Source: Byssovorax sp. (lineage in GTDB: Bacteria > Myxococcota_A > Polyangia > Polyangiales > Polyangiaceae). From it: a stretch of DNA of 64,000 nucleotides. The position numbers and the translations under genes were made by a program. The DNA is taken from positions 1-64,000 of the forward strand of contig JANYGI010000032.1 of the NCBI GenBank assembly GCA_025362495.1, read 5' to 3'. Shown in pieces: positions 1 through 1,998 of this stretch (position 1 is the stretch's first letter; each line of letters starts with the position of its first letter). Below the pieces are notes generated by a model, which searched no databases, was not told the origin of the DNA, and was given only the letters and a program-made list of their open reading frames with translations.

Positions 1-1119
1 GGCGAGGCGGTGACCGACGCGGCGATCGGCGTCCGGCACCATGGCGTACGCGGCCTCGCGCACCAGCGCGTGACGGAACACGTACTCGTCCTCGCCGGGG
101 AAGCTCGCGTCCTTGCGGCGAGCGATCATCTCGCCGGCGCAGAGGCGATCGAGCGGCTCGCGCAGCGCTTCCCGCGGCTCGCCCAGCAGCGCCGCGACGC
201 CGCCGCCCCAGAAGATCGGACCGAACAGGCTCGCCGCGCGGAGGATGCGCTTGGCCTCGGGGCCGAGCGCGTCGAGGCGGGCTTGCACCATCCCGAGCAC
301 CGTGTCGGGCAGCGCCTCGCCGGCCCCGTCCACCGTCGCGCGGATCAGCTCTTCCATGAAGAACGCGTTGCCCTCGGCCCGCGCGACGATGCGCTCGACC
401 GCGACCGGATCGACGCCGTCGCCGAGGGCCGCGCGCACGAGCCGTTCGCTCGCCTTGGGCAGCAGCGGGCCGAGGCGCACCAGCTGCGGATCGCGCTCGG
501 ACCACAGGCTCGGGAAGCGCTCGTGGACCTCGGGCCGCGCGAGCGCGACGACGAAGAACGGCCGCTGCGCGAGCGCGCACAGCGCCGCGTCGAGGAACCC
601 GACCGAGGCCACGTCGCCCCAGTGCACGTCCTCGACGACGACGATCACCGGTTGCTTCGCGCACTCGGCGTCGAGCCACTCGAGCCACGCGGCGCGCATG
701 AGATCGCCCGTCAACATCGCGTCACGTCGTGGACTCGGGGCGCCGGCCTTCGCCGATACGCCGGGCACGCCGGCGAGCTCGCCGATCAGCGCGAGCGACG
801 CGGCCGAGACGCGCGGGCCGATCCGCGCGGCGAGCTTGTCGCGCTGCGCCTCGGCGGGCTCGCCGTCGAGCAGCCCCGCGAAGCGCCGGATCGCCGGGGC
901 GATCAGGCCGAACGCCGAGGCCTCCGCGAGCGGGCTCCCGCGCCCGAGCAGCACCTCGGGCCGCGGCTCGACCCGCGCGAGCCGCGCGAGCAGCTCGTAG
1001 CGCAGGCGCGATTTTCCGACGCCGGGCGCGCCCTCCACGATCACCGCGCGCGCCACCGGCTCGCTCGTGCACTCGGCGAACAGCGCCTCCAGGTTGGCGA
1101 GCTCGCGATCGCGGCCCAC
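1..1119 (-). CDS. AAA ATPase domain of a kinase/ATPase-type regulator, partial, runs off left edge
   Basis: The minus strand encodes a STAND/AAA-type ATPase like those fused behind Ser/Thr kinase domains in myxobacteria. In frame I read a GRDRELANLEALF-type entry motif near 1120-1085, a Walker A GAPGVGKSRLR near 1031-1003, and a Walker B VIVVVEDVHW near 645-615. A conserved winged-helix-like segment ending YVFRHALVREAAYAMV lies near 80-38. The reading frame continues past base 1, so the C-terminal half is missing from the window. Upstream it is blocked by an in-frame TGA at 1212-1210, and no kinase domain is present. The GTG at 1119 is the first plausible start, but ribosome-site support is poor. 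I infer a 5'-truncated gene fused by rearrangement to the neighbouring peroxidase-like gene, possibly not expressed. Confidence 0.7.
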   Translation of the reverse strand, partial: MGRDRELANLEALFAECTSEPVARAVIVEGAPGVGKSRLRYELLARLARVEPRPEVLLGRGSPLAEASAFGLIAPAIRRFAGLLDGEPAEAQRDKLAARIGPRVSAASLALIGELAGVPGVSAKAGAPSPRRDAMLTGDLMRAAWLEWLDAECAKQPVIVVVEDVHWGDVASVGFLDAALCALAQRPFFVVALARPEVHERFPSLWSERDPQLVRLGPLLPKASERLVRAALGDGVDPVAVERIVARAEGNAFFMEELIRATVDGAGEALPDTVLGMVQARLDALGPEAKRILRAASLFGPIFWGGGVAALLGEPREALREPLDRLCAGEMIARRKDASFPGEDEYVFRHALVREAAYAMVPDADRRVGHRLA

Positions 1120-1225
1120 GCACGGAGCCGGCTTTCCGATCAGCGTGCGCGGCGCCGGCGTCGCGGGCCGGAGGCCGAGGAGCGATCGATCCCCCGCGGC
1201 GCCCTCGCTTCATCGTTCGAGGCGA

Positions 1226-1244
1226 CACGCAGAAACTCTGCGTG
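1226..1244 (-). promoter_or_regulatory. Candidate bacterial SECIS hairpin after an in-frame TGA
   Basis: On the minus strand the bases CACGCAGA-GTT-TCTGCGTG form a perfect 8-bp stem with a 3-nt loop that starts with G. The loop begins 17 nt after the TGA at 1256-1254. Known bacterial SECIS elements sit just downstream of a UGA-Sec codon and have a short apical loop with a G in its first two positions. The codons forming the stem (GCA, TTT, CGT) are rare choices in this genome, as if the hairpin were selected. Function is inferred. Confidence 0.5.
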
Positions 1245-1253
1245 AGCGGACGT

Positions 1254-1523
1254 TCAATAGAGGCACTGGGAGGTGCGCGCCGCGACCGAGGCGAGAAGCT
1301 CACGCTCGGCCCAGCTCAGCTCGACGCCCTGGTGCATCGTCCCGGTCGCGCCGAAGGCCAGCGCCATCAGCTTCGGATCGAGGCTGTGCGCCCGCTGGAT
1401 CCCCGCCGCACCGCCGTGCGCAGGGCGGTAGGCCGCCGGGATCGGGCGCGCCGCCATCCCCTGATACACCTCGCGCAGCTCCCCCTCGGCGTCGGCGATG
1501 TCGATCATCTGGATCCAGGCCAT
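1254..1523 (-). CDS. Carboxymuconolactone decarboxylase/AhpD-like protein, truncated at its active site or a selenoprotein
   Basis: The product resembles the peroxidase-related CMD/AhpD-like family, which uses a redox CxxC followed by His to reduce peroxides. I start at the ATG giving MAWIQMIDIADAEGELREVY; a GTG at 1568 would add 15 residues. A core motif ELSWAERELLASVAART leads into QCLY, and then the codon expected to be the second Cys is TGA (1256-1254). Reading through TGA gives TSAHAEFLRVASND, the normal continuation with the conserved His, to a stop at 1140. Family members run about 70 residues further, and that part is missing where the neighbouring ATPase sequence begins. It is therefore either a selenoprotein whose 3' end was lost, or a pseudogene with a nonsense mutation. 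No selenocysteine machinery is visible in the window. Confidence 0.6.
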   Translation of the reverse strand: MAWIQMIDIADAEGELREVYQGMAARPIPAAYRPAHGGAAGIQRAHSLDPKLMALAFGATGTMHQGVELSWAERELLASVAARTSQCLY

Positions 1524-1707
1524 GAGCGCAGGATGCCAGGGGACCCGACGGAAAGAAAGCCTCTTCACGGGCGCTCCCCTGGCTCCAGTCGGGCGCTCAC
1601 CGCGCCATCCGGGGTCGGAATCTCTCCATCGTGCCCGATCCTGGATCGGCAGTTGCTCTCATCCATGGACAGCGCACCTCGACGCGCTCGAACCTGGAGA
1701 GTGAGTA

Positions 1708-1998
1708 ATGAACGGTAGATTCAGCCTCGTCCTGATTGGCACTCTCGCGCTCATGGGCGGGTGCGCGGGCCAGGCGCCGCCTCCGCCGCCCGAGCCCCCC
1801 GCGGCGACGCCGCCTCCTCCGCCTCCGCCTCCGCCGGCCGAGCCGCCCACTCCGCCCGGCACGCCTCCTCCGCACCACGGGCCGGGCGCGCTGCCGCCGC
1901 CGCCCGGAACGCCGGGAACTCCCCCGGCGCCGACGCAAGGGCCCTTTGGCGCGCCGCCGCCGCCGTCAAAGACGCCTCAAGGCGCCCCCCCCACGTAG
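1708..1998 (+). CDS. Proline-rich lipoprotein
   Basis: This 96-aa protein has a signal sequence ending in a lipobox (LMGGC, Cys at residue 19), so it should be lipid-anchored outside the inner membrane. The rest is almost entirely Pro, Ala, Gly and Thr in PPPP and TPP runs, with no folded domain. It is probably an extended spacer or wall-interacting tether. A GGAGAG sequence sits 7-8 bases before the ATG. The DNA carries a CTCCGC-type microsatellite that could vary in length. Function is unknown. Confidence 0.7.
   Translation: MNGRFSLVLIGTLALMGGCAGQAPPPPPEPPAATPPPPPPPPPAEPPTPPGTPPPHHGPGALPPPPGTPGTPPAPTQGPFGAPPPPSKTPQGAPPT

Follow-up and report, generated by a model that had tools for sequence, protein, structure and literature searches.

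AhpD-like selenoproteins with a CxxU motif are known in bacteria from a Sargasso Sea family (PMC1088965), from GOS (PMC2398784) and from a 2026 catalogue (PMC13188914), as far as the available text of these sources describes them, and the initial annotation of the present locus was right to regard such proteins as established. According to the available part of the catalogue, a bacterial SECIS element has a loop of 3-9 nt, a stem of 4-16 bp, a G in the first two loop positions, a distance of 16-37 nt from the UGA, and an energy of -7.5 kcal/mol or lower (PMC13188914). In human Sestrin2, the accessible text describes an active first domain with Cys125, Tyr127, and His132, an altered second domain, and a reaction in which the first Cys attacks first (PMC4674687). 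The bacterial Sestrin analogues in the accessible part of PMC11429811 have the degenerate domain first or carry cysteines in both domains. The window, that is, the whole 64,000-nt stretch of DNA analysed here, contains a truncated member of the known CxxU AhpD-like kind. It agrees with the described AhpD-like selenoproteins (TIGR01926), as far as the sources describe them, in having CxxU at the same place and a SECIS element behind the UGA, but differs in that its intact homologues add a second, degenerate AhpD-like domain and in that the window copy is truncated. What is added to the known kind is its presence in Polyangiaceae, an almost unchanged SECIS element, a two-domain form with the Sestrin order, and a fresh remnant. 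No paper on myxobacterial selenoproteins was found among the titles and abstract starts of the open-licence literature.

The gene fragment is encoded on the minus strand. Its frame starts with the ATG at 1523 (MAWIQMID...SQCLY, or MAWIQMIDIADAEGELREVYQGMAARPIPAAYRPAHGG...LSWAERELLASVAARTSQCLY), reaches an in-frame TGA at 1256-1254, and continues after QCLY-TGA with TSAHAEFLRVASND (TSAHAEFLRVASNDEARAPRG...). The remaining N-terminal part of the AhpD/CMD-like selenoprotein gene occupies 1212-1523 (104 codons), and the frame from the ATG through a second in-frame TGA (1142-1140) spans 1140-1523, so that a read-through product would end there at 127 residues. The initial annotation had given this span correctly without stating a strand, and its observation that QCLY is followed by a TGA at the second active-site position holds. 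The TGA at 1254-1256 is the predicted selenocysteine codon in the second position of CxxU. As read from the sequence, TGC at 1263-1265 encodes the first Cys of the CLYU motif, and CAC at 1242-1244 encodes the His of the CxYUxxxH motif and also forms the opening bases of a hairpin. On the opposite strand, a small, very proline-rich, lipoprotein-like open frame adjoins the fragment (1708-1998, plus strand).

The fragment belongs to the CMD family PF02627 (25.6 bits; cut-off 23), which also matched two other genes of the source genome, both without stops. It scored 34.7 bits with TIGR01926 (peroxid_rel), below the cut-off of 81.8 because it is truncated; three scanned full-length homologues reached 137-141 bits, in two stretches. 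The AhpD-related selenoprotein model NF041238 (AhpD_rel_CFYUT) resembles the present proteins in its CFYUT motif and related profile. However, the fragment scored 35.9 bits and the three full-length homologues 64.9-80.1 bits against a cut-off of 175, and the Sec domain matched positions of about 215-338 of the 357 in the model, so that this domain is C-terminal there and N-terminal here. Membership in NF041238 was rejected by both score and domain order.

The putative SECIS hairpin, CACGCAGA-GUU-UCUGCGUG, is located at 1226-1244 on the minus strand. As the initial annotation had described, its 8-bp stem is perfect and its 3-nt loop starts with G; it begins 9 nt past the TGA, with the loop at 17 nt, and has an energy of -10.8 kcal/mol. 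It agrees with all four published conditions in the available text of PMC13188914 (a loop of 3 nt opening with GU, a stem of 8 bp, 17 nt from the UGA, and -10.8 kcal/mol). The codons within it are atypical, as had also been pointed out, with shares of their synonymous sets of 7.8% (GCT), 4.5% (GCA), 11% (CGT), and 23% (TTT), counted on three window genes and eight homologous genes with the hairpin codons included. None of 200 dinucleotide shuffles of the hairpin alone was equally stable, whereas the hairpin with its flanks (46 nt) was unremarkable (z -1.2; 25 of 200 shuffles equally stable). When the codons of the peptide were resampled, some 8-bp SECIS-like hairpin arose in 9596 of 200000 versions, and one at exactly the place seen in the window in 51 of 200000; such a structure is favoured when AHAEFLR is written in GC-rich codons, which is why the single-copy hairpin is not extreme. 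Among three genes of the window, 46 of 1523 codons were followed by a SECIS-like hairpin of equal stability; in a control set limited to the window fragment plus three full-length homologues out of the seven, this was the case for 70 of 1032 codons. At the -7.5 kcal/mol line, the background in the same two sets was 163/1523 and 202/1032 codons. An Rfam scan of window positions 1100-1600 gave no match up to an E-value of 1. The hairpin in a single copy is weak evidence, and its weight comes from conservation between genomes.

The TGA might be read as a plain nonsense mutation or a sequencing error in a decaying Cys-type gene, with the hairpin as a by-product of the peptide and its GC-rich codons. 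The truncation of the window copy is in keeping with such decay, as is the appearance of a hairpin alone, by chance, at some percent of sites. The comparison between genomes points the other way. The fragment had matches in 11 of the 108 genomes of the family, and eight of these form one group consisting of the window copy and seven full-length copies, to which the fragment is 61-65% identical over 104 residues. All seven full-length homologues, five of which are from Minicystis rosea DSM 24000, Polyangium fumosum DSM 14668, and three Polyangium sp., carry TGA at this codon. The eight close copies are not independent, and five of them belong to one genus. The remaining three matches comprise two genomes with TGA (G049 and G039) and one with Cys (G044). 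A wider search of the phylum covered 377 genomes drawn evenly, with at most five candidates scored per genome; among the best 30 loci, which were read, 24 had TGA at CxxU and 6 had Cys at the same position. The UGA thus stands at a conserved redox position that is occupied by Cys in other homologues. Three more copies that match both domains (L057-L059), from another family of the same class, have TGA, so that all ten two-domain copies found (seven in the family and these three) carry it.

No second copy was detected in the source genome, either with the window fragment, which was significant at the window place only, or with a two-domain profile at 1e-10. Five genes or fragments beside the CMD part in the window had no match in ten homologue stretches (E 1e-5), and the gene neighbours in five relatives, compared by eye, differ from those in the window. 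No partner gene could therefore be named.

The hairpin itself is conserved at the nucleotide level. The same 19 nt are found in the window copy and in all seven full-length close homologues, and the seven hairpin codons are fixed in 8/8 copies, whereas outside the hairpin a single codon is used in 11 of 36 degenerate columns with an invariant amino acid (Fisher p 0.001). Across Myxococcota, the published SECIS model, as given in the available text (-7.5 kcal/mol), was reached by 29 of 30 TGA copies and by none of the seven motif-bearing Cys copies among the scanned loci. The exception is L042, which misses the energy line at -5.8 kcal/mol. For L065, L067, and L070, the top score went to another hairpin, which lies 36-37 nt from the UGA. 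In alignment A5, which holds 22 TGA rows (18 distinct), the stem of the window hairpin is paired in 91.7% of cells, compared with 35.7% over the seven Cys rows. Six TGA copies with a differently placed hairpin or motif (L043, the second L061 gene, L074, L079, L080, and L081) are counted within the 30 of the model comparison but left out of A5. Repeats were also omitted, namely L040 and L041 (same as L036 in these 31 nt), L066 (same place as L042), and L084-L086 (same places as L057-L059). Two stem pairs have changed on both sides, from C-G to G-C in four distinct rows and from C-G to U-A in one. Of 500 shuffles for the TGA rows, 1 reached the observed percentage of pairing and the covariation score, 24 reached the count of two-sided pair changes, and 417 reached the count of pair types, a measure that is no better than shuffles. 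Covariation in the SECIS stem is real but small. A second SECIS type occurs in the same protein family, with a 7-bp stem (CGACCTC/GAGGTCG) and a 6-nt loop 24 nt from the UGA (L043:1311-1352, L074:1744-1785, L079:1750-1791, L080:1741-1782, and L081:1756-1797).

The source assembly (10.8 Mb, 240 contigs, 96.6% complete) contains selA, selB, selC, and selD, all above their cut-offs. The tRNA-Sec gene (selC) scored 70.3 bits (cut-off 47), and its anticodon was given as tca by ARAGORN. The same contig carries selB in a 665-aa frame (270.6 bits; cut-off 242.25), and selA was found in a 479-aa frame (460.9 bits; cut-off 267.9) and selD at 317.7 bits (cut-off 125). The selD gene (L046:1531-1593) is itself a predicted selenoprotein gene, with an in-frame TGA within GGGUARK and, behind it, a SECIS-like hairpin (-9.2 kcal/mol) with the loop GUC, 27 nt from the UGA. 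Within the family, 34 of 108 genomes have selC at 60 bits or more, a line that was our own choice at a gap in a list made with stricter filters; these include all eight members of the group, G049, and G039. The same 108-genome search gave no selC match in G044, which has the Cys copy. The Sec-machinery search covered genomes other than G444, G442, and G372. Weaker tRNA-Sec model matches (at most 49 bits) are clustered at G000:C14:37665-42543, perhaps as a tRNA gene array.

The TGA and hairpin shared with seven full-length genes, the full set of sel genes, the rare codons retained in the hairpin, and the lack of such a hairpin in the seven Cys homologues all speak against a nonsense mutation or a sequencing error; with TGA and hairpin conserved, that reading was rejected and has next to no probability. 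The initial annotation had proposed that the TGA is recoded, or was in an ancestor, and the same observations support this. It had suggested a search for sel genes, for full-length CMD homologues with TGA, and for aligned U/C positions, all of which were found, and it had named missing sel genes together with Cys homologues and an unconserved hairpin as the signs of a nonsense mutation; the genome shows the opposite, down to its own selD with a TGA in frame. The UGA position, the SECIS element, the sel genes, and their conservation are read directly from the sequences. The TGA of the window copy is best regarded as a selenocysteine codon by descent, because the sel genes are present, TGA and hairpin are conserved, and the hairpin is absent in Cys homologues.

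From the same data we infer selenocysteine insertion, peroxidase-type chemistry, and which residue attacks first. In the intact gene, SelB carrying Sec-tRNA would bind the hairpin 17 nt behind the UGA, and selenocysteine would be inserted in place of termination. The intact protein probably acts in thiol/selenol redox chemistry, as a peroxide-reducing enzyme or a related one, through a Cys-x-Tyr-Sec-x-x-x-His active site in which Sec and the Cys three residues upstream may form a selenenylsulfide during the reaction.

The window copy ends within its catalytic domain. Homology to the selenoprotein stops at about 1208, and homology to another gene starts at 1192, which places the junction at 1192-1208 on the minus strand. 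The adjoining part of a gene (1-1191, minus strand) has an AAA_16 ATPase domain (PF13191, 55.3 bits), lacks its N-terminal half, and runs off the contig start. Beginning at 1192, the window shares 76% identity over 192 nt with the interior of a 1361-aa Minicystis frame (L088), the product of which is 65% identical to that of the window gene and the upstream part of which reads, by eye, like a protein kinase. In the Minicystis record (16.0 Mb), the counterparts of the two joined genes are found at 15.45 and 5.95 Mb. Measured against the Minicystis protein, the fragment has lost about 228 of 332 residues. The initial annotation had suspected a relic with some 70 C-terminal residues missing; the relic stands, as a gene cut and joined to another gene, whereas the loss is much larger. 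A rearrangement appears to have cut the gene about 15 codons past the UGA and joined it to the interior of the kinase/AAA-ATPase-type gene, which would have removed the remainder of the catalytic domain together with the entire second domain.

Alternatively, the gene could be intact in the organism and the truncation an assembly error at a chimeric contig end. An error of this type is possible at a junction this close to the contig start (1.2 kb) and in an incomplete assembly, and the undecayed state of the kept part would agree with it. On the other hand, the missing 228 C-terminal residues had no match in the source genome at an E-value of 10, and a search there for the missing half of the kinase/AAA-ATPase-type gene gave only paralogues of 32-36% identity. 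The two ends of a chimera usually remain in an assembly, and neither missing half was found elsewhere in this one, so a real deletion or rearrangement is favoured and an assembly error is unlikely. Many full-length paralogues of the kinase/AAA-ATPase-type gene are present in the source genome.

The kept part shows no decay, with changes in 3 of 48 columns fixed in intact copies; the same kind of comparison gave 6 of 54 for Minicystis and 14 of 62 for L037. The break is therefore probably recent, although an undecayed fragment would also fit a copy that is still in use. Such a copy might be expressed as a short selenopeptide with a use of its own, as its start, frame, UGA, and SECIS element are intact and have changed no more than in full-length copies; if still expressed, it would yield a 127-residue peptide with a foreign tail. 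This is very unlikely, because the tail past 1208 is foreign and, in a model of the Minicystis protein (mean pLDDT 61.4), the catalytic-domain helices at 122-136, 143-151, and 156-177 lie beyond the break. Because neither the remainder of the catalytic domain nor the second domain is left, the window copy is most probably a non-functional remnant of recent origin. Taken together, the sequence data make it highly probable that the window holds the first third of an AhpD-like (CMD-fold) selenoprotein gene that was cut by a rearrangement and is now likely such a remnant.

The seven full-length copies have 332-342 residues. Their first AhpD-like domain carries C-x-Y-U-x-x-x-H; judged by eye from the alignment, neither CxxC nor CxxU occurs in the matching region of the second domain of any copy. 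An AlphaFold2 model of the Minicystis protein, built from six sequences, was of middling confidence. The top VIA-align match was human Sestrin2, which aligned along both domains (Z 14.2; rmsd 5.5 over 255 and 5.2 over 248 residues), ahead of single-domain AhpD-like proteins (Z 9.7-12.6), although some helical models without clear relatives also reach a Z near 14. In Foldseek, Sestrin2 ranked 13th (E 0.028), behind single-domain AhpD-like proteins, and a sequence profile search gave Sestrin-2 at E 0.04-0.07. The Sestrin family PF04636 scored 17.4 bits in L037, below its cut-off of 29.4, and the other scanned proteins were unlisted. Given the middling confidence of the model, the structural match to Sestrin is a lead only.

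As far as the accessible text of PMC4674687 goes, the intact homologues share with Sestrin2 two AhpD-like domains, with the motif in the first and none in the second, and the C-x-Y-x-x-x-x-H spacing. They differ in having Sec where Sestrin2 has Leu128, and in a sequence match that is under the Pfam cut-off and found in one homologue only. The sequence support is below the cut-off, and therefore a likeness of architecture is claimed rather than membership. In contrast to the bacterial Sestrin analogues in the accessible part of PMC11429811, the Sec domain comes first and the degenerate domain second. The intact relatives may tentatively be considered a subfamily of bacterial selenoproteins whose domains follow the Sestrin order, in which the motif-less C-terminal domain might bind a ligand or partner; we hold this to be possible but somewhat doubtful.

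The two-domain form with this order bears on the origin of Sestrins, and if the likeness reflects kinship and not convergence, a two-domain AhpD with Sec would serve as a model of the stage that preceded them. Ordinary gene calling halts at UGA, so such genes stay hidden. The present loci offer nucleotide-level SECIS evidence that myxobacteria probably use AhpD-type selenoproteins, and the window appears to have caught a selenoprotein gene soon after breakage, with the Sec machinery still present. The intact gene is available in the cultured species M. rosea DSM 24000 and P. fumosum DSM 14668. A further arrangement of CxxU genes occurs in a distant member of the Myxococcota (L061:1654-2594, G194:C4), in which two CMD/AhpD-like genes stand in tandem, one with CFYU and the other with CEFU.
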